Source: Desertimonas flava (lineage in GTDB: Bacteria; Actinomycetota; Acidimicrobiia; Acidimicrobiales; Ilumatobacteraceae). Taken from it: a stretch of DNA of 39,149 nt. The notes below the pieces were generated by a model that had not been told where the DNA came from, made no database searches, and saw only the letters and a program-made list of their open reading frames with translations. A program made the translations under genes and the position numbers. Below, in pieces: positions 8,208 through 23,489 of the stretch. The stretch's first letter is position 1, and each line of letters begins with the position of its first letter. Location of the stretch: contig NZ_QKYK01000042.1 of assembly GCF_003426815.1 (NCBI RefSeq), positions 1 to 39,149 of the forward strand, given 5' to 3'.

Positions 8208-8273
8208 CACGGGGCCCGGCCCGTAGGGGGAGCGGTCTGGCGGCGCGGGGACTTCGTGGGTTATGAAGGCCGG

Positions 8274-10288: not shown

Positions 10289-11536
10289 CTACGGCTTGCG
10301 GCCGAAGCCGAAGAGGTGCTTGGCCACCTTGCGCATCTGGATCTCCTCGGAGCCCTCGGTGATGCGGTAGCGGCGGTGGTGGCGGTAGATGTGCTCGAAC
10401 GGCATGTGGCGGCTGTAGCCGACGCCGCCGCACGTCTGCATCGCCCGATCGGCGGCGTCGCAGGCCAGCCGGTTGGCACGGTAGTTGCACATCGCCACGG
10501 CGTGGGTGAGCTCGAGGTGGTGCTGCTGGTCGAGGCTCCAGGCCGTCTGGCGGATGAGCTGGCGGAGCATCGCTGCTTCCGTGTGCAACTCGACGAGGGG
10601 GAACTGGATGCCCTGGTTCGTGCTGAGCGGCTTCGACCACGTGGTGCGACCGTTGGCGTACGCCACGGCCTCGTTGATGCAGAACTGCGCGGCGCCGAGC
10701 GACGACGCCGCCTGGCGGATGCGGTTCTCGTGCACGAAGTGCTGGGCGAGGTCGAGGCCGTGGTCGACGGTGCCGAACACGGCGTCGTTGCCGACGCGGA
10801 CGTCACGCAGCGTTACCTCGGCGTGGTCGGTCGGCATGTTGAACGTCCACCAGAAGAACTCGACCTTGAACCCGGGTGAGTCGGTCGGCACGAGGAACGC
10901 CGTGATACCGCCGGCCGATCCCGGCTCGCCTGACGTGCGGGCGAAGATGATGTCGTGCGTCGCGTGATGGAGGCCCGAGTTCCAGCGCTTGGCCCCGTTG
11001 ATGATCCACTCGTCGCCGTCGCGGACCGCTGTCGTCTCCATGTACGTGGCGTCGCTGCCGTGGTTGGGTTCGGTGAGGCCGAACGCAAGTCGTCGCGAGC
11101 CGTCGAGGAATCCGGGCATCCACTCGGCCTGCTGCTCCGGGGTGCCGAAGTCGCGCATCATCAGCACGGTCGGGAAGTTGCCGACGATCGACGATTCGTT
11201 CTGCAGGTCGTTGTGGAGGCCGAGGCCCTTCGTCGCCAGGTGCTCGCGGATGATCGCCATCTCGAGGTTGCTGGCGTCGCGGCCGCCGTACTCGGCGGGG
11301 AGGGCGAGGCGCAGCCAACCGGCTTCGTCGGCCTTGCGTCGCATCTGCGCCAGCAGGTCCTCCCACTCCGCCGTGGGAATGCCGCCGTTCTCGAAGTCCG
11401 TTCGGGCCCACTCGCGCCGGTGGTCGAAGAAGCGGATGTTGTCGTCGGCCTGCTCCAGCGGCTTGATCTCCCGCTCGATGAAGTCGTCGAGCTGGTCGAG
11501 CGTGGTCTGAATGTCGGCCGGGAGAGCGAAGTCCAT
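10289..11536 (-). CDS. Acyl-CoA dehydrogenase
   Basis: An FAD-dependent acyl-CoA dehydrogenase of 415 residues, normal length. It introduces the alpha-beta double bond into an acyl-CoA. Landmarks in order are LALPAEYGGRDASNLEMAIIREHLA, the FAD/substrate region LAFGLTEPNHGSDAT and EWIINGAKRWNSGLHHA, then ENRIRQAASSLGAAQFCINEAVAYANGR. The C-terminal QTCGGVGYSRHMPFEHIYR and RITEGSEEIQMRKVAKHL follow, where TEG carries the position of the catalytic Glu in medium-chain-type enzymes. ATG at 11536 is chosen because the coding pattern ends there; further upstream the frame runs into the divergent TetR gene. The promoter looks leaderless and overlaps a palindromic operator (see 11545-11574). It is divergent from the TetR regulator, which probably represses it. 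Confidence 0.93.
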   Translation of the reverse strand: MDFALPADIQTTLDQLDDFIEREIKPLEQADDNIRFFDHRREWARTDFENGGIPTAEWEDLLAQMRRKADEAGWLRLALPAEYGGRDASNLEMAIIREHLATKGLGLHNDLQNESSIVGNFPTVLMMRDFGTPEQQAEWMPGFLDGSRRLAFGLTEPNHGSDATYMETTAVRDGDEWIINGAKRWNSGLHHATHDIIFARTSGEPGSAGGITAFLVPTDSPGFKVEFFWWTFNMPTDHAEVTLRDVRVGNDAVFGTVDHGLDLAQHFVHENRIRQAASSLGAAQFCINEAVAYANGRTTWSKPLSTNQGIQFPLVELHTEAAMLRQLIRQTAWSLDQQHHLELTHAVAMCNYRANRLACDAADRAMQTCGGVGYSRHMPFEHIYRHHRRYRITEGSEEIQMRKVAKHLFGFGRKP

Positions 11537-11544
11537 CCTTGCGC

Positions 11545-11574
11545 ACCATACGGATGAAGTGACGTCGACGTCAA
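11545..11574 (-). promoter_or_regulatory. Probable leaderless promoter of the acyl-CoA dehydrogenase gene
   Basis: On the minus strand there is TTGACG (11574-11569, five of six against TTGACA), an 18-base spacer, and TATGGT (11550-11545, four of six against TATAAT). The expected transcription start would fall about two bases before the ATG at 11536, giving a leaderless message, which is common in actinobacteria. The operator 11560-11573 overlaps the -35 box and the spacer. This is a sequence-based prediction. Confidence 0.5.
11560..11573. promoter_or_regulatory. Palindromic operator, site 1
   Basis: TGACGTCGACGTCA is a perfect 14-base palindrome in the 79-base gap between the divergent acyl-CoA dehydrogenase and TetR genes. 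Near-identical sites occur at 12383-12396 (12 of 14) and 21533-21546 (13 of 14). It is the best candidate for the binding site of the adjacent TetR protein. Confidence 0.65.
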
Positions 11575-11615
11575 GGTCACGTCGAGGGTTGCCAGCGGGA
11601 CTACGATCCCGAACG

Positions 11616-12332
11616 ATGGTGGAGCCTCTCCCAACACGTGCCCGCCCGCCGAGGCGCACCGCGCCGCGTCGGACCACCCCGACCGCGGCCACGGTCGACC
11701 AGCTCACCCCTCGCGGTCTGCGCACGCGGGAGGCGATGCTCGCGGCGGCTCGTCGCGTGTTCGAACGCGACGGCTTCCTCGACGCCCGCATCACGGACAT
11801 CTCGGCCGAGGCCAACATGGCCCACGGGACGTTCTACAAGTACTTCGACTCCAAGGAGCAGGTCTTCATGGAGGTGATCGAGCGGTCGCAAGAGGAGCTC
11901 TTCGCCGAGCGGCCGAGCCGGCAATCGGCGGCCGAGACGCCGTTCGAGCGAATCCTCGAGACGAACCGGGCGTACTACGAGGCCTACCGCCGGAACCGGG
12001 CACTCAACAAGGTGCTCGAAGCTGTCGCCACCTTCGACGACACCTTGCGCCAGCAGCGTGTGGTGATCCGACGGCGGTACGTGGACCGCACCGAGAAGGC
12101 GATCCGCCGGTGGCAGGCCGAAGGGCTGGCCAGCCCTCACCTCGACCCCCACTACGCGGCCAGCTCGCTCGGATCGATGGTCGACCGCACGATCTACGTG
12201 TGGCTGGTGCTCGGGGAGGACCACGATCCCGACGTCGGCCTCGACACCCTGTCGCGCCTGTGGGTGCGGGCTCTCGGCCTGCCCGAACCCGACCCGGTGC
12301 CGCCGCGGCGGAAGCGACGACGCTCCACCTGA
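11616..12332 (+). CDS. TetR-family transcriptional regulator
   Basis: A 238-residue one-component repressor. After a Pro/Arg-rich N-terminus comes the TetR helix-turn-helix: LRTREAMLAAARRVFERDGFLDARITDISAEANMAHGTFYKYFDSKEQVFMEVI (about 34-90). The C-terminal ligand domain continues through AYYEAYRRNRALNKVLEAVATFDDTL and RRYVDRTEKAIRRWQAEGL, a pattern seen in TetR regulators of lipid and acyl-CoA catabolism. It ends with an Arg-rich tail. ATG at 11616 is chosen; the open frame upstream crosses the divergent promoter. It is divergent from the acyl-CoA dehydrogenase and sits directly upstream of the ABC-transporter operon. Palindromes of one type in its own control region and in two neighbouring ones suggest that it is the local regulator. 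The inducer is likely a CoA ester made in the pathway, by analogy with related regulators. Confidence 0.9.
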   Translation: MVEPLPTRARPPRRTAPRRTTPTAATVDQLTPRGLRTREAMLAAARRVFERDGFLDARITDISAEANMAHGTFYKYFDSKEQVFMEVIERSQEELFAERPSRQSAAETPFERILETNRAYYEAYRRNRALNKVLEAVATFDDTLRQQRVVIRRRYVDRTEKAIRRWQAEGLASPHLDPHYAASSLGSMVDRTIYVWLVLGEDHDPDVGLDTLSRLWVRALGLPEPDPVPPRRKRRRST

Positions 12333-12375
12333 GCGCCCGATCGGCGCCGTGCGAACGGGCGCCGAAGCGCTCGAC

Positions 12376-12404
12376 TTGACTGTGACGTCGCAGTCATCTT
12401 AACT
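12376..12404 (+). promoter_or_regulatory. Promoter of the transport operon with overlapping operator, site 2
   Basis: TTGACT (12376-12381, -35), a 17-base spacer, then TTAACT (12399-12404, a weaker -10). The spacer region holds TGACTGTGACGTCGCAGTCA (12377-12396), a 20-base palindrome with one mismatched pair. Its last 14 bases match site 1 at 12 of 14 positions. A repressor here would cover the -35 and spacer. It lies 70 bases before the substrate-binding protein start. Confidence 0.55.
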
Positions 12405-12473
12405 ACGGCGAGTCGCCTGGACGGGCGGCCACGAGGGGCGACGGGGGTCGCCAACACAAGGCAGGGGGATTCG

Positions 12474-13838
12474 ATGAATCAGCGCAGTGAGCAGGACGGG
12501 CTCTTCGGGCGGACGCTGTCACGACGCAACGCACTGCGGGCTCTCGGGCTCACCGGTGTTGCCGTGGCCGCAGGCGGACACCTGGCAGGTGCCGCCGGGC
12601 CAGCCCGACCGAAGCGAGCAGCCGGCCTGCGCCGGCCACGGAGCGCCGATGCCGGGGCGCAGCTCGCCGAGCTGCTCGGCATCGACCCGGCGACCGCCGG
12701 CGGCGGCGAGACGTTCAAGATGGGCGCGGTGCTGGCGATGACCGGGGCCGGCTCGTACTACGGCCAGACGATGAGCCGCGGCATCGACCTCGCCGTGGCC
12801 CACATCGCCGCCGCGGGTGGCCCGCAGTTCGAGGTGAAGTACCTCGATCACAAGTCGGGCGACGCCCAAGCCGGCGTGGATGCGATGCGTGAGCTCGGCG
12901 AAGCGGGCTATCCCGCCAAGCTGGCGTCGTACTGCGACAACCTGGGGTCGATGCTCCCGGGGACCGAGCAATACCAGTGCTTCACCCTCGACGGCGGTGG
13001 CGGAACCAGCACGTTCGCCCAGGGTAAGCCCTTCTTCTGGGGCACTCGCGCGATCACACCCAACGACGCGATCCCGGGGCTCCTCGAGTACACGAAGACC
13101 GTCCTGCCCGACGCCAAGACGCTCGGCTTCATCGGCTGGGACCTCGGCGAGCCGACGAACAGCCAGATCCGCGAGGACATCCTCGCCAAGTTCGAGGCGG
13201 CCGGCTACGAGTTCAACGGCCTGTTCGAGCTCTACCCCGTCGGCGAGTCGAACTACTCCACCCTGCTCCCGAAGATCCAGGCCAACGAGCCCGACATCCT
13301 CATCGCCTACGGCTCGGGCCAGGACCCGGGGCACTTCGCCTCGCAGTACTACGTGAGCGGCATCGAGGCCCCCTTCTTCGGCTTCGAGTTCACGCCGGAC
13401 GGCCTCAACGCCTCCAACGGCGCGTACGACGAGTACGGCTTCACCTTCGCCGCCGACTACTTCGACGAGAGCGTCGGCGTGAGCCCGCTGGCGAAGCTGT
13501 TCATCTCCGAGTACCAGGCCGCCTACGACGACGAGTTCCCCGACTTCTACGCGGCGAACTTCTACGAGAACACGCTCGTGATGTGGGAGGTGATCCGCAG
13601 GGTGATCGAAGGCGGCGGCGACTTCAACAGCGGTGCCGACCTCGACGCCGCCTTCCAGGAGAACCTGACCGCGGTCTCGGTGTACGGCGGCGACGAGTCG
13701 ACGATCGGCTCGTACACGCTCGATCCCGTGACGCACTCGGTGATCCAGCGTCCGATGGGCGTCTTCAACTACAAGGACGGTGCCGTCACGCCGTTGGCGT
13801 TCTTCGACATCGCCGCCGCCGACTTCCGGCTCGCCTGA
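12474..13838 (+). CDS. LIV-type ABC transporter substrate-binding protein with Tat signal
   Basis: A 454-residue periplasmic-binding-type protein of the branched-chain amino acid (LivK/Peripla_BP_6) family. It captures the substrate for the permeases encoded next. It starts with a twin-arginine signal (LSRRNALRALGLTGVAVAAGG), so it is exported folded. There is no lipobox Cys, which is unusual for a Gram-positive binding protein. The mature domain begins at about residue 80 with FKMGAVLAMTGAGSYYGQTMSRGIDLAVAHI and continues through KYLDHKSGDAQAGVDAMRELGEAGYPA. LPKIQANEPDILIAYGSGQDPG and YAANFYENTLVMWEVIRRVIEGGGD are typical later segments. ATG at 12474 has AGGGGG at 12463-12468. First gene of the operon, with six bases to the LivH gene. 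The ligand is not necessarily an amino acid: this family also serves aromatic and fatty-type acids, and the linked CoA ligases point that way. Confidence 0.92.
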   Translation: MNQRSEQDGLFGRTLSRRNALRALGLTGVAVAAGGHLAGAAGPARPKRAAGLRRPRSADAGAQLAELLGIDPATAGGGETFKMGAVLAMTGAGSYYGQTMSRGIDLAVAHIAAAGGPQFEVKYLDHKSGDAQAGVDAMRELGEAGYPAKLASYCDNLGSMLPGTEQYQCFTLDGGGGTSTFAQGKPFFWGTRAITPNDAIPGLLEYTKTVLPDAKTLGFIGWDLGEPTNSQIREDILAKFEAAGYEFNGLFELYPVGESNYSTLLPKIQANEPDILIAYGSGQDPGHFASQYYVSGIEAPFFGFEFTPDGLNASNGAYDEYGFTFAADYFDESVGVSPLAKLFISEYQAAYDDEFPDFYAANFYENTLVMWEVIRRVIEGGGDFNSGADLDAAFQENLTAVSVYGGDESTIGSYTLDPVTHSVIQRPMGVFNYKDGAVTPLAFFDIAAADFRLA

Positions 13839-13844
13839 TCCGAC

Positions 13845-14777
13845 GTGCTGGCGGTCAGCCTCGAACAAGCGCGGCAACTCTTTGCCTCGGGCATCGTCAA
13901 CGGTTCCGCCTACGGACTGCTCGGCGTCGCCTTCGCCCTCATCCTGGGCGTGACCGGTCGGTTCCACTTCGCGTTCGGTGCGATCTACACGCTGACCGCC
14001 TACCTGGCGTTCACGTTCGTCGATCGCGTCGGGCTCGGCTACTGGCCGGCTGTCGTCCTTGCTCTCGTGCTGATCCCGTTCGCCGGTGCGGGCGTCGAGT
14101 GGTTCGTCTACCGACCACTCGCCGTCCGCGCCGGCGGCAACGCACTGTTGGCGATCTTCGTCGCCGCCCTCGGCCTCGGCATCGCCCTGGAGAACTTCAT
14201 CCGCATCGTCTGGGGGTCGCAGACCAACGGACTTCGCGGTTGGAAGATCCGCGGCGTCGAGATCGGCGGCGCCAACCTCATCAACATCGACCTGTACGCC
14301 GTCGGCACGGCGGCCGTCCTCGTGCTGCTGCTCGCCGCCGCCCTGCGGTACACGTCCTTCGGTCGGGCGGTGAAGGCGACGCGCAGCAATCCCGACATGG
14401 CACTGCTGATCGGCATCGATCCGCGGCTCGTCTACGTCGTGGTGTTCGCCGCCAGCACGTTCCTCGCCGGTGTCGCGGCGATCTTCGCGGCGACGAAGTT
14501 CTCCGTCGAACCGTCGATGGGCTTCCGCCCCGTCGTGCTCGCCTTCGTCGTCGCCTTCTTCGGGGGGACGGCCAGCTCGCCGGTCAGGGTGTATCTCACC
14601 GGCATCGGCGTCGGTCTCATCGAGACGATGAGCTCGCTGTGGGTGTCGGTGCGGTGGACGCAGATCTCGGTCTTCGTGATCCTGCTCGTCTACCTCGTCG
14701 CCAAGTCGATCGCCGCCGGCGGCCCCCTCCGCTTCGACATCCGGCGCTTGCTGACCCGTCCGAGAGAGGCGTTGTGA
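13845..14777 (+). CDS. ABC transporter permease, LivH type
   Basis: A 310-residue integral membrane permease of the branched-chain amino acid transport family. Hydrophobic spans run through nearly all of it, starting GIVNGSAYGLLGVAFALILGVTGRFHFAFGAIY, which is the family's opening motif. Later ones include YWPAVVLALVLIPFAGAGVEWF and VYVVVFAASTFLAGVAAIFAA. The cytoplasmic EAA-like loop is RYTSFGRAVKATRSNPDMALLIGIDPRLV. GTG at 13845 is the first start after the binding-protein stop. It forms the membrane channel together with the LivM half of the protein encoded at 14893. A 115-base gap with repeat sequence separates it from that gene. Confidence 0.93.
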   Translation: MLAVSLEQARQLFASGIVNGSAYGLLGVAFALILGVTGRFHFAFGAIYTLTAYLAFTFVDRVGLGYWPAVVLALVLIPFAGAGVEWFVYRPLAVRAGGNALLAIFVAALGLGIALENFIRIVWGSQTNGLRGWKIRGVEIGGANLINIDLYAVGTAAVLVLLLAAALRYTSFGRAVKATRSNPDMALLIGIDPRLVYVVVFAASTFLAGVAAIFAATKFSVEPSMGFRPVVLAFVVAFFGGTASSPVRVYLTGIGVGLIETMSSLWVSVRWTQISVFVILLVYLVAKSIAAGGPLRFDIRRLLTRPREAL

Positions 14778-14892
14778 TCCGTCCGGATGTCAGCGAGCGA
14801 AGCGAGCGTCCTGGAGTTCGAGCGGTGAAGGCCGGCGGAGCGCTAGCGGAGCCGGCCGTTCACGCGGCCTGCGTGGCCGGAGAACGCAGCAG
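14778..14892. repeat. Repeat-rich insert inside the transport operon
   Basis: This is the only large gap in an otherwise tight operon. It holds GCGAGCGAAGCGAGC (14793-14807), whose exact reverse complement occurs at 23548-23562 in another gap. It also holds an inverted repeat with arms GGCCGGC/GCCGGCC around an inner CGCTAGCG palindrome, and then further GGCC-rich sequence. This looks like a small dispersed extragenic repeat, possibly acting as an RNA hairpin that adjusts expression of the downstream genes. No open frame of its own is convincing. Confidence 0.6.
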
Positions 14893-16647
14893 ATGAGCAT
14901 CTTCTCCAATTACGCCGATCAGGTGCTCATCTTCGGCATCCTGGCGATCTCGCTCAACCTGCTGCTCGGGTTCGCCGGCCAGGTGTCGGTGGCCCACGCA
15001 GCGTTCGCCGCGGTCGGCGGCTACTCGGTGGGATACCTCGCCTTGACCCACCACTGGAACCTGTTCTTCGGGGTGTTCGTGGGCACGCTCGTCGCCGGGC
15101 TGTTCGGGGTGGCGGTCGCCCTCCCCGCCCTGCGGCTGTCGGTCGAGTACCTCATTCTGTTGACGCTTGCCGTGTCGTCGGTGCTGCTCGGCCTGTTCCA
15201 GACGTTCCCGCAGCTGGGCGGCACCTACGGGCTGATCAACATCCCCAAGGCCTCGCTGTTCGGTTGGACGTTGGCGTCGCCGCGGGATTGGCTCCTGCCG
15301 CTGCTCGTGTTCCTCGTGCTGACGTTCGCGCTCTGCCACCGTCTCGGCGAGTCGCCGTTCGGTCGTGTGCTGCGGGGCCTCCGCGACGACCCCGAAGCGA
15401 TGCGCTCGCTCGGCAAGAACGTCGTCGCCGCCAAGATCCTCGTGTTCGGCGTGACCTGCGCCCTCGCCGGTCTCGGAGGCGGTCTGCTGGCGTCGTTCAA
15501 CTCGATCGCCACGCCCAGCCAGTTCGGCTTCGACGTGTCGCTGTCGATCTTCGCCATGGTGATCTTCGGTGGGCTGGGCAACCTCTACGGCTCGGTGCTC
15601 GGGGCAGCTACCGTCGTGCTCACCAAGCCGCTGCTCGAGTGGGCGGTGTCGCTCAGCCCGGAGACGGCCGGTCTCTGGCGCCTGACGATCTACGGCCTGC
15701 TGCTCGTCGTATTGATGCGGCTGCGGCCCGAAGGGCTGCTGCCCGAAGGCGTCAACCCGTTCCGCCCGGCCACGTGGCGACGGGCCAGCGCGATTCCCGG
15801 CGACGCCGCCACCGACAACCCGCCGGCACCGGTCCTTCGCGTCGCCGAGGAGAGCCCGGCCGGGGACACCTCGCGGTGGAAGTCGGCACCTGTCGTGCTC
15901 GACGTGAAGGGCCTGTCGAAGTCGTTCGGCGGCATCGTCGCGGCGTCGGAGCTCGACCTCGAGCTGCGCCGCGGGACCATCACCGCACTCGTCGGCCCGA
16001 ACGGCGCCGGCAAGACCACGGTGTTCAACCTGCTGACGGGGTTCATCAGACCCGACGCCGGTTCGATCCGTCTCGAGGGCCGCGAGCTCGTCGGTCGCAC
16101 GCCGAACGCGGTGGCCGGGTACGGCATGGTCCGATCGTGGCAGGACGTGCGCATCGTGCCCCGCCTCAGCTGTCGGGCCAACGTGATGCTGGGGGTGCAG
16201 CGCCAGCTGGGCGAGTCGGTGCCACGGCTGTTCACCTCGCCCGGCGCCGTTCGGGACGCCGAGGTCGCGACCCGCGAGGCGGCCGACAAGTGGCTCGAGT
16301 TCGTCGGGATGTCGGCCTTCGCCGACGTGCCCGGCGGCGCCCTGTCGTTCGGGCAGTCGAAGCTCGTCGCCCTCGCACGCGTCCTGGCGACCGAGGCGCC
16401 CGTCCTGCTCCTCGACGAACCGGCCTCGGGCATCGACACGGTCTGGGTCGACACGATGCTGTCGCTGATCGAGCAGGTGCGCGATCAGGGTCGCACGGTG
16501 TGCATCGTCGAGCACAACCTGCACGTGGTCGGCCGGCTCGCCGATCACACCTACTTCATGGAACTGGGAAGGATCACCGATCAGGGCACCCTCGATCACC
16601 TGACCGGCTCGCCGCGACTGGCGGAGGCGTACTTCGGTGTCGCCTGA
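14893..16647 (+). CDS. Fused LivM permease and LivG ATPase of a LIV-type ABC transporter
   Basis: A 584-residue fusion. Residues 1-290 are a LivM-type permease: LAISLNLLLGFAGQVSVAHAAFAAVGGYSVGYLAL near the start, SPFGRVLRGLRDDPEAMRSLGKNV as the cytoplasmic coupling loop, and FGGLGNLYGSVLGAATV. After a linker of about 45 residues, an ATPase of LivG type starts at about 335 (LDVKGLSKSFGGIVAASELDLEL). Walker A is GPNGAGKTT (about 365-373). The signature is LSFGQSKLVALARVLA, Walker B is VLLLDEPASGID, and the switch His is IVEHN. LivM-LivG fusions occur in some actinobacteria and proteobacteria; separate genes are more usual. ATG at 14893. The last 11 bases overlap the start of livF. Confidence 0.93.
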   Translation: MSIFSNYADQVLIFGILAISLNLLLGFAGQVSVAHAAFAAVGGYSVGYLALTHHWNLFFGVFVGTLVAGLFGVAVALPALRLSVEYLILLTLAVSSVLLGLFQTFPQLGGTYGLINIPKASLFGWTLASPRDWLLPLLVFLVLTFALCHRLGESPFGRVLRGLRDDPEAMRSLGKNVVAAKILVFGVTCALAGLGGGLLASFNSIATPSQFGFDVSLSIFAMVIFGGLGNLYGSVLGAATVVLTKPLLEWAVSLSPETAGLWRLTIYGLLLVVLMRLRPEGLLPEGVNPFRPATWRRASAIPGDAATDNPPAPVLRVAEESPAGDTSRWKSAPVVLDVKGLSKSFGGIVAASELDLELRRGTITALVGPNGAGKTTVFNLLTGFIRPDAGSIRLEGRELVGRTPNAVAGYGMVRSWQDVRIVPRLSCRANVMLGVQRQLGESVPRLFTSPGAVRDAEVATREAADKWLEFVGMSAFADVPGGALSFGQSKLVALARVLATEAPVLLLDEPASGIDTVWVDTMLSLIEQVRDQGRTVCIVEHNLHVVGRLADHTYFMELGRITDQGTLDHLTGSPRLAEAYFGVA

Positions 16648-17344
16648 CCTCCTGCTCGATGTCCGGGACCTGCGTTGTGCCTACGGGCGCAAGGAGGTCG
16701 TGTTCGGCGTGTCGCTCGGCGTCGGCGAGGGCGAGGTCGTGTCGCTCTTCGGCCACAACGGCGCCGGCAAGACGACGGTGATCAAGAGCGTCATCGGTGC
16801 CCTGTCGCCGCGTGCCGGCTCGGTGTTCTACGACGGGCAGGACGTCACCGGCACCTCACCTCGCGTCAACGTGCGCCGGGGAATGGCGCTCATCCCGTCC
16901 GAGCGCTTCGTCTTCGCCGACCTCACGGTGACCGACAACCTGCTGCTCGGCGCGCCGGGGGTGAGCGCCGAAGAGCGCGATCGCCGGTTGCGCTCGGTGT
17001 ACGAGCTCTTCCCCATCCTCGACGAGCGCGCCAAGCAGCTCGCCGGGACGATGTCGGGCGGTCAGCAGCGCATGGTCAGTCTCGGTCTCGCCCTGATGAC
17101 CCAGCCGCGGCTGTTGCTGCTCGACGAGCCATCGCTGGGCCTGGCTCCTGCCGTCGTCGGCTCGATCTTCGACGCCATCCGCCGCCTGGCCGACCAGGGC
17201 CTGTCGGTGCTGCTGCTCGAACAGAACGTCGGGCAGGCCCTGCGCATCTCCGACCGCGTGTCGGTCATGCGTACCGGGCGGGTGATCCTCGAGGAGACGG
17301 CGGACGAGATGCGCCAGCGTGACTCGTACTGGGACCTGTTCTGA
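16637..17344 (+). CDS. ABC transporter ATP-binding protein, LivF type
   Basis: A 235-residue ATPase, the second nucleotide-binding subunit of the LIV-type importer. Walker A is GHNGAGKTTV (about 38-47). The Q-loop region is LIPSERFVFADLTVTDNL, the signature is MSGGQQRMVSLGLALM, Walker B is LLLLDEPSLGLAP, and the switch region is LLLEQNVGQALRISDRVSVM. LivF proteins typically have LLVEQN here, which supports the subtype. GTG at 16637 overlaps the end of the LivM-LivG gene by 11 bases, implying coupled translation. The next gene starts four bases after its stop. Confidence 0.94.
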   Translation: MSPDLLLDVRDLRCAYGRKEVVFGVSLGVGEGEVVSLFGHNGAGKTTVIKSVIGALSPRAGSVFYDGQDVTGTSPRVNVRRGMALIPSERFVFADLTVTDNLLLGAPGVSAEERDRRLRSVYELFPILDERAKQLAGTMSGGQQRMVSLGLALMTQPRLLLLDEPSLGLAPAVVGSIFDAIRRLADQGLSVLLLEQNVGQALRISDRVSVMRTGRVILEETADEMRQRDSYWDLF

Positions 17345-17347
17345 GCG

Positions 17348-18343
17348 ATGCACGTCTCGTGTGCCTTCCCCACCACGATGTCGTCGCCCGACGACATCCG
17401 CGTCGCCGAAGAGATCGGCTACCACCGGGCGTGGTTGTACGACACGCCGCAGCAGAGCCCCGACGTTTGGATGTCGCTGGCGCTGGCCGCCGAGCGGACG
17501 TCGCGGATCGGACTCGGGCCCGGCGTCCTGATCCCCACGCTGCGTCATCCGATGACGAACGCCGCCGCGACGGCCGCACTCGAGGCGCTGGCGCCGGGAC
17601 GGGTGGCCGTCTCGTTCGGCACCGGGTTCACCGGCCGCCGGGCGATGGGGTACGGGGCGATCTCGTGGCGCTTCATGGTCGACTACATCGAGGCGTTTCG
17701 CTCGCTGCTGCGCGGTGAGACGATCGAGTGGGATGGCGCGCGGATGCGCATGCTCCATCCAGAGGGCAGCGGTGCCGCCCGCCCGGTCGATGTGCCGGTG
17801 CTGATCGGGGCGATCGGTCCCAAGGGACAGGACATCGCTCGGCGCCTCGGCGACGGGTTGTACGTGACGACGACGACCGGCGGGCTGGAGCCCGGCCAGT
17901 TCGACTGGGTCGCCTATCTCTACTGGGGGACGGTGCTCGGCGACGGCGAGGACGTCACCTCGTCGCCGCGGGTGCAGGCCGCCGCCGGACCGGGTGGAGC
18001 GCTGGCCTACCACGCCACCTACGAGCTGTCCGGCCCGGACGCCGTGGCCGCCATCCCCGGTGGGCCCGAGTGGCTGGCCTCGATCGGCGAGCACGACGAG
18101 GCGGAGCGGCACCTCGCCGTGCACACCGGTCACTGCATCGAACTGAACGAGGCCGACCGTGTGGCGTGGGCCGTCACCGGTGGTGCGCTGCTGCCCAGCA
18201 CCACGGTGACCGGTTCGCCGACCGAGGTGCGGCGCAAGATCGACGACCTCGGCGCCGCCGGTGTCACCGAGGTCGTCTACCAACCGAGCGGCCCGGACAT
18301 CCGCCGCGAGCTCGAAACCATGTACGCCGCCTGCACGGCCTGA
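17348..18343 (+). CDS. LLM-class flavin/F420-dependent oxidoreductase in the transport operon
   Basis: A 331-residue luciferase-like monooxygenase or F420-dependent oxidoreductase. Landmarks are IRVAEEIGYHRAWLYDTPQQSPDVWMSLALAAERTSRIGLGPGVLIPTLRHP, then LEALAPGRVAVSFGTGFTGR. A central GMP-like region follows (DVPVLIGAIGPKGQDIARRLGDGLYV), and then a C-terminal EVRRKIDDLGAAGVTEVVYQPSGPD. It starts four bases after livF and is therefore co-transcribed with the importer, which suggests that it acts on the imported compound or its CoA ester. Possible chemistry in this family includes monooxygenation, Baeyer-Villiger oxidation and F420-linked redox; the sequence does not decide between them. Confidence 0.9.
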   Translation: MHVSCAFPTTMSSPDDIRVAEEIGYHRAWLYDTPQQSPDVWMSLALAAERTSRIGLGPGVLIPTLRHPMTNAAATAALEALAPGRVAVSFGTGFTGRRAMGYGAISWRFMVDYIEAFRSLLRGETIEWDGARMRMLHPEGSGAARPVDVPVLIGAIGPKGQDIARRLGDGLYVTTTTGGLEPGQFDWVAYLYWGTVLGDGEDVTSSPRVQAAAGPGGALAYHATYELSGPDAVAAIPGGPEWLASIGEHDEAERHLAVHTGHCIELNEADRVAWAVTGGALLPSTTVTGSPTEVRRKIDDLGAAGVTEVVYQPSGPDIRRELETMYAACTA

Positions 18344-18358
18344 GAAGGAGGACCGACG

Positions 18359-19948
18359 ATGACGTCACTCGACAGCGCACGGAGCCTGGCCCACGGAGAA
18401 CAGCTGGCCCGCATCGCCCGCAAGACGCCCGACAAGATCGCCTACAAGTTCGAGCATTCGACACTGACGTTCGCCGAGCTCGACGCGCGCGTGAACCGCT
18501 TGGCCAACGCACTCGCGGCGAGAGGCATCGGTCGCGGCGACCGCGTCGCCACGCTGATGACGAACCGCCTCGAGGTGATCGAGGCCTACCTCGCGGCGGC
18601 CAAGCTCGGGGCGATCTGCGTGCCGGTGAACTTCCGCCTCGTCGCCGACGAGATCGTCTACATCCTCGGCGACTGCGGGGCCGGCGTGCTGATCGTCGAC
18701 GACGGGCTCGCCGAGACGGCCGGCGCCGCCCTGGCATCGGTCCCGAGCGTTCGGCACTGCCTCGTCACCGGCGACGGCCCGGCCGGCGACGCCGGCGAAC
18801 GCGGCGAGCGCTACGAGGACGCCCTGGCCGCCGCCGGCGCCGAAGCGCCCGACGTGATCGTCAGCCTCGACGAGCGGGCCTTCATCATGTACACGTCGGG
18901 AACGACGGGCCGGCCCAAGGGCGCTGTGCTGTCGCACGGCAACCTCCTGTTCAACACCTACAACATGATGCTGACGATGGGCATCGGCGACAACGAGGTC
19001 TGGCTGTCGGGCCTGCCGCTGTTCCACATCGGCGGACTCAACGGCATCCTGCCGTACCTCCTCACGGGGGGGACGGTCGTCCTCCTGCCGTCAGGCCAGT
19101 TCGACGCCGCCAGCACGGTCGAGATCCTCGAGCGCGAGGGCGTCACCGGCTGCTACTTCGTGCCGACGCAGTGGCAGCAGATCTGCGCCGTGCCCGGCAT
19201 CGCCGATCGCAAGTTGCAGCTGCGGCGCATCTCGTGGGGCGCGTCGGTGGCGCCGCCGTCGGTGCTCCAGGCGATGGCCGACACGTTCCCGGGCGTCCCC
19301 AACTTCAATGCCTTCGGCCAGACCGAGATGAGCTCGGTCACGTGCGTGCTGCGCGGCGAGGACGCCGTGCGCAAGATGGGGTCGGTCGGCACGCCGGTCG
19401 TCAACGTCGAGGTGCGCATCGTCGACGACGACATGAACGACGTCGGCGTCGACGAGATCGGTGAGATCGTCTACCGCGGCCCGACCGTGCTCCAGGAGTA
19501 CTGGAACAAGCCCGAGGCCACCGCCGAGGCGTTCGCCGGCGGCTGGTTCCACTCCGGCGACCTGGTTCGGCGCGATGCCGAGGGCTACATCTACGTCGTC
19601 GACCGCAAGAAGGACATGATCATCTCGGGCGGCGAGAACATCTACTGCGCCGAGGTCGAGGCCGTGATCGACGCCCACCCCGGCGTGCTCGAGGTGGCGA
19701 TCATCGGCGTCCCGCACGAGAAGTGGGTGGAGACGCCCGTCGCCGTCGTCACGCCGAGCGACCCGGCGTCACCGCCGAGCGAGGACGAGATCATCGCGTG
19801 GTGCAAGGACCGCCTGGCGTCGTACAAGAAGCCCACGGCGGTGCGGCTCATCGATGCCCTGCCGCGCAACGCGAGCGGCAAGGTGCTCAAGACCGTGCTC
19901 CGTGAGCAATACGCCGCGCCGACGGTCCCGGAGAACGCGTCGGCGTGA
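18359..19948 (+). CDS. AMP-forming acyl-CoA synthetase
   Basis: A 529-residue ANL-superfamily ligase activating a carboxylic acid to its CoA thioester. AMP-binding loop IMYTSGTTGRPKGAVLSHGN (about 177-196); A5-type NAFGQTEMSS; A7-A8 WFHSGDLVRRDAEGYIYVVDRKKDMIISGGENIYCAEVE (about 400-435); catalytic-Lys region NASGKVLKTVLRE near the C-terminus. A strong AAGGAGG (18345-18351) stands seven bases before ATG 18359, the best ribosome site in the operon. Last gene of the 12.5-19.9 kb operon, so import is likely followed directly by CoA activation. It converges with the second synthetase gene, 20 bases between stops. Chain type (fatty, aromatic or steroid side chain) is not decided by sequence. Confidence 0.93.
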   Translation: MTSLDSARSLAHGEQLARIARKTPDKIAYKFEHSTLTFAELDARVNRLANALAARGIGRGDRVATLMTNRLEVIEAYLAAAKLGAICVPVNFRLVADEIVYILGDCGAGVLIVDDGLAETAGAALASVPSVRHCLVTGDGPAGDAGERGERYEDALAAAGAEAPDVIVSLDERAFIMYTSGTTGRPKGAVLSHGNLLFNTYNMMLTMGIGDNEVWLSGLPLFHIGGLNGILPYLLTGGTVVLLPSGQFDAASTVEILEREGVTGCYFVPTQWQQICAVPGIADRKLQLRRISWGASVAPPSVLQAMADTFPGVPNFNAFGQTEMSSVTCVLRGEDAVRKMGSVGTPVVNVEVRIVDDDMNDVGVDEIGEIVYRGPTVLQEYWNKPEATAEAFAGGWFHSGDLVRRDAEGYIYVVDRKKDMIISGGENIYCAEVEAVIDAHPGVLEVAIIGVPHEKWVETPVAVVTPSDPASPPSEDEIIAWCKDRLASYKKPTAVRLIDALPRNASGKVLKTVLREQYAAPTVPENASA

Positions 19949-19968
19949 CGATCGCCCCTTCGACGATG

Positions 19969-21513
19969 TCAGCGGAGCGGGTCGCCCCACTCCGTGTGCT
20001 CCCGCAGCACCGGCTTGAGGACCTTGCCGTTGGGGTTGCGGGGGAGCGGCTCGTCGCGGAACGCCACGTACTGGGGCACCTTGAAGTCGGCGAGCAGGGT
20101 GCGGGCGAACCGGGCCACCTCGGCCGCATCCGGCGCCGCTCCGGGCGTGGGCACGATCACCGCGCCGACCTTCTCGCCCATCATCGAGTCGGGGACGCCG
20201 ACCACGGCGACCTCGAAGACATCCGGGTGCTGGGCGAGGGCGTTCTCGACCTCGACGCAGTACACGTTCTCGCCGCCGCGGTTCACCATGTCCTTCTTGC
20301 GGTCGACGATCTGCACGTACCCGTCGGCGTCGATGCGAGCCAGGTCGCCCGTGTGCAGCCAGTGGTCGACGAACGTCTCGGCCGACTGCTCGGGCTTGTT
20401 CCAGTAGCCCGCCACGACGTTCTGGCCACGGATCAACAGCTCACCGACGCCGTCGGACTCCTCGAACAGGTCGAGCTCGATGACCGGGGCGGCGAAGCCC
20501 ACGGTCTCGGGGCGGACGTCGCAGTACTCGTGGGGCAGGAACGTCGACACGGACGAGGTCTCGGTGAGGCCGAAGCCGTTGCCGAGACGGGCGTTGGGGA
20601 ACTCGGAGCGCAGCTTGGCGATCACGTCGGGCGGCATCGGTGCCCCGCCGTAGGTGAGCCAACGCACGCTCGACACGTCGGTCTCGGCGAACGCCGGCTG
20701 GCTCATCGCCAGCCAGAAGATGGCCGGGACGGACGTGAGCACGTCGATGCGCTCCTCCTCGATCGCCCGCAGGAAGCGCTGGACCTCGAACGCCGGCATG
20801 ATGACCGTCGTCCCGCCGAACCACACCGTGATCAGCAGCTGGCTGTTGAGGCCGGTGACGTGGAACAGCGGAACCGACACCAGGTTGCGGATGGCGATCT
20901 GGCGGGGGAAGTGCATGATGCGCCGGCACGTCTCGCAGTTCGCCATGAAGTTCTCGTGGCTGAGCATCGCCCCCTTGGGCCGGCCCGTCGTCCCGCTCGT
21001 GTAGCAGATGGCGGCGAGGTCGGTCGGCTCGCTCGACGCCCGGTCGACCGGGTCGCCGCTCGGCAGCGACTCGCCGGGCCGGAACACGTAGCTGGCGCCG
21101 GAGTCCTCGAGGATGTAGTCGATCTCCGGCTCGGCCAGGCGGGTGTTGACGGGCACGACGACGGCGCCGGCCAGCACGGCGCCGAAGAACGCCACCACCC
21201 ACTCGGCTCCGTTGGGCAGGATGATCGCGACCCGGTCGCCGGGCTCGATCCCGGCCGCGGCGAGACCGCCGGCGACGGCGCCCGCTTCGGCGTGCAGCTC
21301 CCCGTACGTGAGGCGCCGGCCATCCAGCTCGACGATCGCCTCGGCGTCAGGATTCGCCGTCGCTGTCGCCAGGAACATGGCGCCGATCGTCGGCGGCAGG
21401 TCGTCGTAGCGGAGGACCCCGTCGGCCCCGCGGGTGACGCCCGATTCGTCGAACGGACGCACCGCGCCGACGCGCCCTTCCTTCTGCACCTTCTGGTCAG
21501 TCGAACCTTCCAT
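19969..21513 (-). CDS. Second AMP-forming acyl-CoA synthetase
   Basis: A 514-residue ANL-superfamily ligase, only moderately like its convergent neighbour, so not a recent duplicate. AMP-binding loop ICYTSGTTGRPKGAMLSHEN (about 168-187); NGFGLTETSSVSTF as the A5 region; WLHTGDLARIDADGYVQIVDRKKDMVNRGGENVYCVEVE; final Lys in NPNGKVLKPVLRE. ATG at 21513 has a G-rich ribosome site (GGGGGGA) just upstream. Divergent from the dehydrogenase gene at 21603, with operator site 3 between them. Two synthetases within one regulon suggest either different acids or activation at two stages, for example the intact compound and a ring-opened product. That is inference. Confidence 0.93.
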   Translation of the reverse strand: MEGSTDQKVQKEGRVGAVRPFDESGVTRGADGVLRYDDLPPTIGAMFLATATANPDAEAIVELDGRRLTYGELHAEAGAVAGGLAAAGIEPGDRVAIILPNGAEWVVAFFGAVLAGAVVVPVNTRLAEPEIDYILEDSGASYVFRPGESLPSGDPVDRASSEPTDLAAICYTSGTTGRPKGAMLSHENFMANCETCRRIMHFPRQIAIRNLVSVPLFHVTGLNSQLLITVWFGGTTVIMPAFEVQRFLRAIEEERIDVLTSVPAIFWLAMSQPAFAETDVSSVRWLTYGGAPMPPDVIAKLRSEFPNARLGNGFGLTETSSVSTFLPHEYCDVRPETVGFAAPVIELDLFEESDGVGELLIRGQNVVAGYWNKPEQSAETFVDHWLHTGDLARIDADGYVQIVDRKKDMVNRGGENVYCVEVENALAQHPDVFEVAVVGVPDSMMGEKVGAVIVPTPGAAPDAAEVARFARTLLADFKVPQYVAFRDEPLPRNPNGKVLKPVLREHTEWGDPLR

Positions 21514-21532
21514 CGATCCCCCCGAGTGATGT

Positions 21533-21546
21533 TGACGTGGACGTCA
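21533..21546. promoter_or_regulatory. Palindromic operator, site 3
   Basis: TGACGTGGACGTCA differs from site 1 (11560-11573) at one position. It lies in the 89-base gap between the divergent synthetase (start 21513) and short-chain dehydrogenase (start 21603). A TTGACG -35-like box overlaps it on the plus strand, but I find no clear -10 at the right distance. Confidence 0.6.
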
Positions 21547-21602
21547 TGTTGCCCGAACTCTACTGGCGGGATCGCCGGCCAGCCCCTGTGAGAGGACGAG
21601 AA

Positions 21603-22466
21603 ATGACCACTGATCCCGACCGCCTCCTCCGGCTCGACGGCCGCGTCGCCCTGGTGACGGGCGCGTCGTACGGGCTCGGCGTGCTGTTCGCCGACGTGCT
21701 CGCTCGTGCCGGTGCCGATGTCGCCGTGATGGCCCGCAGCGCGGACAAGCTCGCCGACACGCGCAAGCTCGTCGAGGCCCACGGCCGGCGGTGCGTCGCC
21801 GTCGAAGGCGACGTCACCAGCTACGCCGACTGCGAGGCTGCGGCGGCCGCGTGCGTGAACGAGCTGGGCACCATCGACGTGCTCGTCAACAACGCCGGAT
21901 GGGCCGACGACCGGCTGATGCGCACCGAGCACGTCGACCCCGAGTCCTTCGCCCGCATGGTGCAGGTCGACCTCGTCGGGTTGTTCTACATGACCCGCGC
22001 TGCCGCACCGACGATGCTGGCCGCCGGCCGCGGCTCGATCATCAACCTCTCGTCGATCTTCGGCATGGCCGGCTCGGAGAACCGCACCGCCGGCTACTTC
22101 GCCGCCAAGGGCGGCGTGAACCAGCTGACTCGCCAGCTGGCCTGCGAGTGGGGCGATCGCAACGTGCGGGTCAACGCCCTCGCCCCCAACTTCTTCATCT
22201 CCGAGATGACGCGCACGCTCCTCGAGGACTCCGGCATGGCGACGTGGATGCGCAGCCGAACGCCGATGCGGCGTCTCGGCGAGCTCGACGAACTGGTCGG
22301 CCCGCTGCTGTTCCTCGCCAGCGACGCCTCGAGCTTCGTGACCGGCCACGTGCTCACCGTCGACGGCGGCTGGAGCGCCAGCGGAGGCTACGCCCAGTTG
22401 CCCCAGCCGTGGGACGAGTGGAACGGCGAGGCCGGCACCCCGATCGGCCCGGTCACCGTGCCGTGA
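21603..22466 (+). CDS. Short-chain dehydrogenase/reductase (SDR)
   Basis: A 287-residue classical SDR using NAD(P)H to interconvert an alcohol and a ketone, or a 3-hydroxyacyl group. TGASYGLG at residues 19-26 is the cofactor-binding glycine motif, and NNAG follows in IDVLVNNAGWAD. The catalytic residues are Ser near 150 (INLSSIFG), Tyr165 and Lys169 (YFAAK). VRVNALAPNFFISEM and FVTGHVLTVDGGWSASGG are the usual C-terminal segments. ATG at 21603 has AGAGGA just upstream; an earlier frame start would run through operator site 3. Divergent from the second synthetase and 96 bases upstream of the SMP-30-like gene, so probably an operon with it. Confidence 0.93.
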   Translation: MTTDPDRLLRLDGRVALVTGASYGLGVLFADVLARAGADVAVMARSADKLADTRKLVEAHGRRCVAVEGDVTSYADCEAAAAACVNELGTIDVLVNNAGWADDRLMRTEHVDPESFARMVQVDLVGLFYMTRAAAPTMLAAGRGSIINLSSIFGMAGSENRTAGYFAAKGGVNQLTRQLACEWGDRNVRVNALAPNFFISEMTRTLLEDSGMATWMRSRTPMRRLGELDELVGPLLFLASDASSFVTGHVLTVDGGWSASGGYAQLPQPWDEWNGEAGTPIGPVTVP

Positions 22467-22482
22467 GGCTAGACCACTAGCC
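22467..22482 (+). other. Small perfect hairpin after the SDR stop
   Basis: GGCTAGACCACTAGCC forms a 6-bp stem with a 4-base loop, directly after the SDR stop codon and before the SMP-30-like gene. There is no T-run, so it may attenuate or protect the message rather than terminate it. Confidence 0.35.
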
Positions 22483-22562
22483 CGACCAGTTCACAGCCGT
22501 CCCCGGACAGCTCTCCCGATCAACCCGACCACCACACCAGCAATCACTCAGGAGTCACCAAC

Positions 22563-23489
22563 ATGACCGAGTTCAACGAGATGGCCAACGGCCTCAGCTT
22601 CCCCGAGGGCCCGATCGCCATGGACGACGGTTCCGTGATCGTCGTCGAGATGTTCGGGCCCCGCCTCACGCGCGTCCAGCCCGACGGGACCAAGGAGACG
22701 ATCGCCGAGATCCCCGGCGGCCCCAACGGCGCGGCGATGGGCCCCAACGGTCTGGTGTACCTGGCCAACAACGGCGGCCGCTTCACCGAGCAGGACCTCG
22801 ACGGCCTCGTCTTCCCCGGGCCCACCACGCCGGAGAAGTACATCGGCGGCCGCATCCAGACCGTCGACATCTCGACCGGCGCCGTGACCGACCTCTACAC
22901 CGAGTGCAACGGCAACCCGCTGATCGCTCCGAACGACCTCGTCTTCGACGCCCACGGCGGCTTCTACTTCACCGACCACGGCAACGCCGCGTCGGAGCGG
23001 ACGATGCACTACTCGGGCATCTACTACGCCAAGAACGACGGATCGGAGATCCGCGAGATCCTCTTCCCGGTGCACGAGCCCAACGGCATCGGCCTGTCGC
23101 CCGACGGCACGGTGCTGTACTGGGCCGAGACCTGGATGGGTCGCGTCAACCGCCGCCGCATCCTCGGGCCCGGAGTACTCGAGGAGACCGGTCTCGTCGA
23201 CACGTGGCCGTGCCTGTACGGGTTCCCCGGCTTCCAGCTGCTCGACTCGCTCGGCGTCGACGCCGAGGGCAACGTCTGCGTCGCCACGCTCGTCAACGGC
23301 GGGATCACCGTGATCTCGCCCGATGGCGAGCTCGTCGAGTTCATCGAGACCGGCGACCTGTTGACGACGAACATCACGTTCGGTGGTCCCGACCTCAAGA
23401 CGGCGTACGTGACGCTGTCGACCACGGGCCGGCTGATCTCGTTCGATTACCCCCGCGGCGGCCTCGCCCTGGAACACTTGAACAAGTAG
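22563..23489 (+). CDS. SMP-30/gluconolactonase-family beta-propeller (lactonase-like)
   Basis: A 308-residue six-bladed propeller of the SMP-30/gluconolactonase/LRE family, usual length. FPEGPIAMDDGSVIVVEM at the N-terminus carries the metal-binding Glu. PNDLVFDAHGGFYFTDHGN carries the central Asn and Asp, and EPNGIGLSPDGTVLYWAET the Asn and a later blade. SLGVDAEGNVCVATLVNGGITVISPDGELVEFIETGD completes the pattern. Most members hydrolyse lactones, though some act on other esters. Start ATG 22563 with AGGAG at 22550-22554. Its place beside an SDR, acyl-CoA synthetases and an LLM oxidoreductase would suit opening a lactone in the degradation of a cyclic compound. That pathway is inference. Confidence 0.9.
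   Translation: MTEFNEMANGLSFPEGPIAMDDGSVIVVEMFGPRLTRVQPDGTKETIAEIPGGPNGAAMGPNGLVYLANNGGRFTEQDLDGLVFPGPTTPEKYIGGRIQTVDISTGAVTDLYTECNGNPLIAPNDLVFDAHGGFYFTDHGNAASERTMHYSGIYYAKNDGSEIREILFPVHEPNGIGLSPDGTVLYWAETWMGRVNRRRILGPGVLEETGLVDTWPCLYGFPGFQLLDSLGVDAEGNVCVATLVNGGITVISPDGELVEFIETGDLLTTNITFGGPDLKTAYVTLSTTGRLISFDYPRGGLALEHLNK

Follow-up and report, generated by a model that had tools for sequence, protein, structure and literature searches.

We describe a short palindromic repeat that occurs three times in a 39,149-nucleotide stretch of the Desertimonas flava genome (Ilumatobacteraceae; contig NZ_QKYK01000042.1; this whole stretch is referred to as the window), and we regard it with considerable confidence as an operator through which a TetR/EthR-type regulator (gene at 11616-12332) would govern a local regulon of three units. 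The sites, their placement and the recurrence of their core, TGAC-N6-GTCA, with matching genes and related TetR genes in other genomes can be read directly from the sequences; as this core also stands before matching genes in related bacteria, the repressor encoded nearby very probably binds at the repeat.

Operator-like sites and their recurrence beside related regulators

The initial annotation had reported three copies of a 14-mer in control regions of the window, at the positions listed in Table 1 and with zero, one and two changes; a check of the sequence confirmed all three, and each copy (sites A, B and C) proved to be intergenic by open reading frames, by sequence and by codon-based gene calls. 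Site A lies between the acyl-CoA dehydrogenase and TetR genes, which diverge from a gap of 79 bp when the TetR gene is taken to begin at the ATG at 11616; this start codon is uncertain, with the codon model favouring 11757. Site B is the weakest of the three and is better read as a 20-bp dyad, in which 9 of 10 pairs match, than as a damaged 14-mer. A third half-site, TGAY, stands exactly 6 bp outside the 14-mer at all three sites; it reads TGAC at A (on the minus strand) and at B, and TGAT at C. Within the region 11500-12480, which includes site B, the promoter tool called a sigma-70-like promoter for the dehydrogenase (TTGACG-18-TATGGT, minus strand, 11574-11545), whose -35 hexamer falls within operator A, so that promoter blocking would be the simplest account of its action; the tool called no -35 overlap around site C. 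The overlap with a -35 box that had been claimed for two sites is thus reduced to one, at A.

The regulator carries an N-terminal TetR helix-turn-helix domain (TetR_N, 46.3 bits against a cut-off of 24) and an EthR_C domain (31.7 bits against a curated cut-off of 27), and its structure model is all-helical (mean predicted local distance difference test score, pLDDT, of 81), matching TetR-family structures with EthR first and FadR among the next. All 18 NCBIfam models listed for the protein stay below their cut-offs; the equivalog for the ScbR-type autoregulator receptor gives 65.6 bits against 150 and that for the cholesterol regulator KstR 24.2 bits against 280. According to PMC3511530, a TetR-family gene separated by less than 200 bp from a divergently transcribed gene is likely to encode the repressor of the latter: the 79-bp divergent gap, with its palindromic operator-like site A, fits this rule and was counted in favour of the proposed regulon.

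A search of the family with the TetR protein gave matches in 33 of 221 genomes, the window's own included (E 1e-20). The core motif was fixed from the window before it was sought beside TetR relatives in seven other family genomes, with gene calls taken from our own codon model: across 14 loci in these 7 genomes, it occurs 14 times in 27,474 bp of intergenic DNA versus 4 times in 213,565 bp of coding DNA, and one of the four coding sites (L172) overlaps a TetR stop codon. When L175 and L176, neither of which holds a site, are added to give all 16 fetched loci, the counts become 14 in 30,493 bp and 4 in 244,311 bp. Over the same 14 loci, no other half-site order out of 23 gave a comparable result (the nearest, TCGA, had 8 intergenic and 22 coding matches), and none of 14 other spacers exceeded 2 intergenic matches.

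Around the relatives' TetR genes, the best-matching neighbours show identities of 69-72% for the binding protein, 63-76% for the permeases and ATPases, 66-67% for the synthetase, 76% for the short-chain dehydrogenase (SDR), 73% for the SMP-30 protein, 63% for the FadD5-like protein and 62-65% for the acyl-CoA dehydrogenase. In genome G208, an identical 14-mer, TGACGTCGACGTCA, heads an operon of cyclase, TetR, substrate-binding protein (SBP), permease and ATPase genes. Contig C101 of G206 (whole contig, 15.7 kb) holds a transport/synthetase/SDR/SMP-30 cluster with intergenic sites before the SBP operon and before the SMP-30 gene, as well as one further exact match inside the synthetase gene; no TetR relative was found on this contig, where a loose search gave fragmentary matches only. 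Sites stand at the heads of transport operons in G206, G208 and G126: across 11 SBP loci, an exact site lies directly upstream in one (G206), while in G208 and G126 the site heads a longer operon. At the SMP-30 loci, a site was present in 2 of 19 (G206 and G208).

Loci L162 and L163 of G208 hold, within 39 kb, two TetR relatives and two nearly identical dehydrogenase copies, with five exact motif matches (four intergenic), an arrangement that suggests a duplicated circuit. The G206 C101 cluster also holds a luciferase-like monooxygenase (L239:10865-11920), as does the window's transport operon. A putative cyclase (PF04199) accompanies the TetR gene or the operator in relatives (L161:1132-2049, L164:17701-18618, L162:17512-18507, L167:16633-17604, L171:3908-4915 and L125:16166-17071); a cyclase target in the window's own genome was discarded, as no PF04199 match was found there.

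Site scores and occurrence across the genome

A matrix built from 15 sites of the relatives, with no window sequence used, ranks the three sites as the best matches in the window: C with 25.9, A with 22.9 and B with 13.6, followed by the next match at 12.6. The training sites score 18.3-28.4, and the two intergenic G206 C101 sites, which lie outside the training set, score 23.7 and 26.7. In 40 simulated windows the best match averaged 11.3, with a maximum of 24.2; 119 kb of other stretches from the same genome gave coding matches of up to 18.6, a background that is overstated because these stretches were mostly picked for pattern matches. By the matrix, A and C are strong candidate operators and B is a weak one, whose candidacy draws on its position, its 20-bp dyad and the sites that head related operons.

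The whole genome was scanned by patterns, with the matrix applied to selected stretches. In the 6.22-Mb genome the exact 14-mer is found three times, and it was rejected as evidence since the two copies besides that of the window lie inside genes (C20 and C23; reading frames judged from sequence). With at most one mismatch to TGACGTNGACGTCA, 34 places were found: 29 are coding, one overlaps the end of a ribosomal L11 gene and four are intergenic, namely A, C, a gap on C45 beside another acyl-CoA dehydrogenase gene and the gap between an old-yellow-enzyme (OYE) gene and a MerR gene. The proposal that such matches would concentrate upstream of acyl-CoA genes thus holds for three of the four intergenic places (A, C and C45) and fails for the OYE/MerR gap. 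Taken alone, the 14-mer is weak evidence. Allowing up to two mismatches, the pattern has 501 forward matches in the genome; a reversed-pattern control (38/52 against 501/490) was not used, as reversal alters CpG content.

These counts bear on the reading that the repeat is due to chance, or follows from TTGAC -35 boxes and a GC-rich composition, to which we give almost no credence: words of the GACGTC type are indeed common and most near-exact places are coding, but the intergenic enrichment elsewhere holds for TGAC with the N6 spacer only, before matching genes, and a -35 effect would need no mirrored GTCA 6 bp away.

The longer pattern TGAYNNTGACGTNNNNGTCA, which joins the 14-mer to the third half-site, has exactly three perfect matches in the genome, and these are A, B and C; as the pattern was drawn from the three sites, this is descriptive and no test. 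The genome's best three matches to the fully symmetric 20-mer, with one mismatch each, are A, B and the OYE/MerR site, and the 23 loci of this 20-mer that were read comprise 18 coding places, one gene-end overlap and four intergenic places (the three window sites and OYE/MerR). The C45 site, TGACTTCGACGTCA (C45:69583-69596; L256:2001-2014), lies upstream of its dehydrogenase gene (L256:544-1881, minus strand) and scores 17.9 by the matrix, below the training minimum; this gap is a possible extra target of the regulator. The OYE/MerR dyad, TTACATTGACGTCAAGGTCA (C6:88553-88572; L024:1501-1520), was rejected as a further target: with a MerR_1 gene adjoining, it is more likely a MerR operator with a chance likeness to that of TetR. 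Around two weaker TetR paralogs of the same genome, on C12 and C19, the 17 and 13 kb that were read hold no exact site.

Wider relatives and weighing of the proposed regulon

A collection search returned 80 TetR loci, of which 68 were examined; L070, with its equal length and matching sites, appears to duplicate the contig G209:C9 and hence is not independent. The four best matches by E-value (Nocardia, Rhodococcus and two Aldersonia; 44-52% identity) carry TGACTTGACAGTCATGTCA upstream of TetR, which consists of two N6 palindromes offset by 5 bp, and in the tree the window TetR groups with the Nocardia, Rhodococcus and Aldersonia TetRs (Shimodaira-Hasegawa-like approximate likelihood ratio test, SH-aLRT, 83; not starred). 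Aldersonia sp. NBC_00410 has a second perfect copy in the gap that precedes paired genes for a cyclase and an acyl-CoA synthetase, both being gene kinds found with the family relatives. The family matrix gives the Nocardia-type sites low scores (8.6 and 11.7), which indicates that their inner bases differ. When no more than one mismatch is allowed in each half, a second palindrome is present at offset 5 in all four Nocardia-type sites, and at offset 6 in two of the three window sites and in one of 15 family sites; on this last count, a third half-site was rejected as a general feature. A single operator for all TetR homologs that share the recognition helix was likewise rejected, with 57 of 68 loci lacking an exact motif near the gene, and palindromes listed upstream of 55 of the 68 loci revealed, as judged by eye, no clear shared alternative operator.

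Three distant Streptomyces TetR relatives (L120, L121 and L122; 32-35% identity) each have two TGAC-N6-GTCA sites upstream of the TetR match; an exact extra half-site at offset 6 was seen in four of the five sites examined (of six, with one L121 site left out).

Several observations weigh against the proposed regulon. The motif stands near the TetR match in 11 of the 68 collection loci and within 300 bp upstream in 4 of the 10 family TetR relatives of the tree, where the window TetR does not fall into a supported clade with the family's other TetRs. The second TetR of G209 (G209:C32), with weaker homologs beside it (39-48%), has no site, nor do SBP loci of 50-56% identity in the stretches read. 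Site C has three mismatches to the symmetric 20-mer, no better than the background of 92 genomic matches, and the score of site B is below those of all 15 training sites and of coding matches elsewhere (18.6), barely exceeding the next match in the window. The distal genes of the transport operon were included by co-orientation only. The tree puts the window dehydrogenase and the dehydrogenases that adjoin TetR in G206, G208, G209 and G111 into different starred clades, and the 300 bp upstream hold no site at any of 29 loci of its own subgroup (83-86% identity; at one of them the upstream stretch was limited to 23 bp). Upstream sequence amounted to 23 bp at L215 and 8 bp at L201.

In the tree, these TetR-adjacent dehydrogenases (62-65% identity) group with the C23 paralog from the window's own genome, and the window dehydrogenase groups with a widespread group of 83-87% identity, which rules out the former as orthologs of the latter. 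The differing clade and the missing sites in its own subgroup indicate that the dehydrogenase target is not conserved gene for gene: a TetR gene, the predicted operator and a dehydrogenase gene are found together again in relatives, but the dehydrogenase there is another one.

A narrower alternative is that only A and C are operators, with B being a chance likeness and the transport operon controlled otherwise. B has the lowest matrix score and departs from the inner R..Y preference of all 15 training sites, but it is intergenic, lies 77 bp before the operon, forms the 20-bp dyad described above and is one of the genome's three matches within one mismatch of the symmetric 20-mer; furthermore, the transport operons of G206, G208 and G126 are headed by sites. 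We regard this alternative as rather unlikely.

It is also conceivable, at still lower probability, that the sites are real operators bound by another regulator encoded elsewhere, such as a MerR or GntR protein: a similar dyad lies in the OYE/MerR gap of the same genome, and binding by TetR is itself a prediction. This is opposed by the motif accompanying TetR relatives in differing neighbourhoods, including those of Nocardia, Rhodococcus and Aldersonia, and by the 29 close dehydrogenase homologs read elsewhere in the family, which lack the motif, though some of their genomes hold distant TetR kin. A single TetR-centred regulon, as initially annotated, is favoured by the recurrence of the core in intergenic gaps beside TetR relatives and homologous genes, specific to half-site order and spacer, and has to be qualified for the weak site B, the dehydrogenase of another subgroup and the co-oriented distal genes.

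The predicted switch and its relation to known systems

Table 1. Predicted operators and genes of the candidate regulon (positions refer to the window)
Feature	Position	Strand	Remarks
Predicted operator A	11560..11579	-	TGACCTTGACGTCGACGTCA; 14-mer core 11560-11573; divergent gap acyl-CoA dehydrogenase/TetR
Predicted operator B	12377..12396	+	TGACTGTGACGTCGCAGTCA; 14-mer 12383-12396; 77 bp 5' of first ATG of transport operon
Predicted operator C	21527..21546	+	TGATGTTGACGTGGACGTCA; 14-mer 21533-21546; divergent gap acyl-CoA synthetase/SDR-SMP-30
Acyl-CoA dehydrogenase	10289..11536	-	predicted target of operator A
TetR-family regulator, EthR-like C-terminal domain	11616..12332	+	proposed repressor; profile match, codon model, structure model
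Liv-type substrate-binding protein (Peripla_BP_6)	12474..13838	+	first gene of transport operon; predicted target of operator B
LivH-type permease	13845..14777	+	profile match
LivM-type permease fused to LivG-type ATPase	14893..16647	+	one 584-aa protein
LivF-type ATPase	16637..17344	+	profile match
Luciferase-like (F420-type) oxidoreductase	17348..18343	+	co-oriented distal gene
FadD5-like acyl-CoA synthetase	18359..19948	+	co-oriented distal gene
Second acyl-CoA synthetase	19969..21513	-	predicted target of operator C
Short-chain dehydrogenase (SDR)	21603..22466	+	predicted target of operator C
SMP-30-type beta-propeller lactonase	22563..23489	+	downstream of SDR

The grouping of the genes from 10289 to 23489 into one regulon is supported, with the annotated count of ten rising to eleven once the TetR gene is included. 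The SMP-30 protein matches the solved lactonase 7ris over its full length (E 8.6e-92), and from the combination of lactonase, CoA synthetases, dehydrogenase and Liv-type importer we would guess at a lactone or hydroxy acid as the substrate. The LivM/LivG fusion is also present in homologs of 595-597 aa from G206, G208 and G126, and a third synthetase-like gene (ACAS_N plus AMP-binding; 8256-10229) adjoins the cluster.

In the proposed mechanism, of which we infer binding, repression, the ligand and the extent of the operons, a dimer of the regulator would recognise TGAC-N6-GTCA, and the third half-site 6 bp outside may allow a second, offset dimer to bind too in this genome. Sitting on or near the promoters, the regulator would exert repression through A on its own gene and the divergent acyl-CoA dehydrogenase, through B on the Liv-type transport operon, luciferase-like oxidoreductase and FadD5-like synthetase included, and through C on the divergent synthetase and SDR/lactonase genes. 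It would be released by a compound of the pathway, probably the acid or lactone that is taken up or the corresponding CoA ester, such that uptake, CoA activation and oxidation are switched on together.

With no NCBIfam model reaching its cut-off and no paper on the operator sequence found in the open-access literature searched, the system appears to be a new local example of a very common kind of regulon: a well-supported but ordinary genetic switch. A bolder and more doubtful version, which we offer tentatively, is that the regulator would stand at the head of an undescribed regulon of actinobacteria directed at a lactone or cyclic acid and made up of TetR, an acyl-CoA dehydrogenase, CoA synthetases, a Liv-type transporter, an SDR and a lactonase, to which relatives add a cyclase-type hydrolase; in its own lineage the regulator might, as a dimer of dimers, read two TGAC-N6-GTCA palindromes that overlap, with half-site and spacer fixed and an offset of 5 bp in the Nocardia type and 6 bp here, the dehydrogenase slot having been refilled from another subgroup. 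A repeat noticed by eye has in this way led to a regulon open to testing, for which an operator is defined, a candidate regulator is named and the targets are seen again in relatives; the substrate of this uncharacterised pathway of uptake and catabolism can thereby be sought in a narrower field. The offset of 5 or 6 bp would furthermore provide a natural series on how a TetR-type protein packs two dimers on DNA.

EthR from Mycobacterium tuberculosis is the best solved-sequence match and the best fold match of the regulator, which shares its EthR_C domain. The identity is only about 22%, and the window partners are a dehydrogenase, a transporter and a lactonase, whereas the partner of EthR is a monooxygenase. 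The EthR gap to its neighbour, 75 bp, is short like that in the window (PMC3511530). FadP and PsrA are TetR-family regulators of fatty acid degradation (PMC5343134), and FadR of Bacillus is among the fold matches of the window regulator. The gene set differs from those of FadR, FadP and PsrA, and the equivalog for the Bacillus-type FadR gives 52.1 bits against a cut-off of 200. A RutR half-site of the TTGACCA type would give the TGAC-N6-GTCA geometry, and no paper with this string was found in the open-access literature searched. RutR serves pyrimidine metabolism, and its model score here is 26.8 against a cut-off of 368; in E. coli, this TetR-related protein acts on a catabolic operon through a palindrome of approximately 16 bp (PMC10891134). 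A parallel in operator architecture lies in DarR from Rhodococcus and Mycobacterium, where a 20-bp operator is read as overlapping palindromes with three good motifs of four and two dimers bound (PMC10636190): the window sites also have three good half-sites of four (TGAT in C), although the operator sequence is unrelated, the ligands of DarR are cyclic nucleotides and two dimers are only suggested for the window. Dimer-of-dimers binding is known as a class (PMC4150764), with QacR, CprB and DarR as members, and its trait of two offset, overlapping dimer sites is that with which the window sites are compared here.

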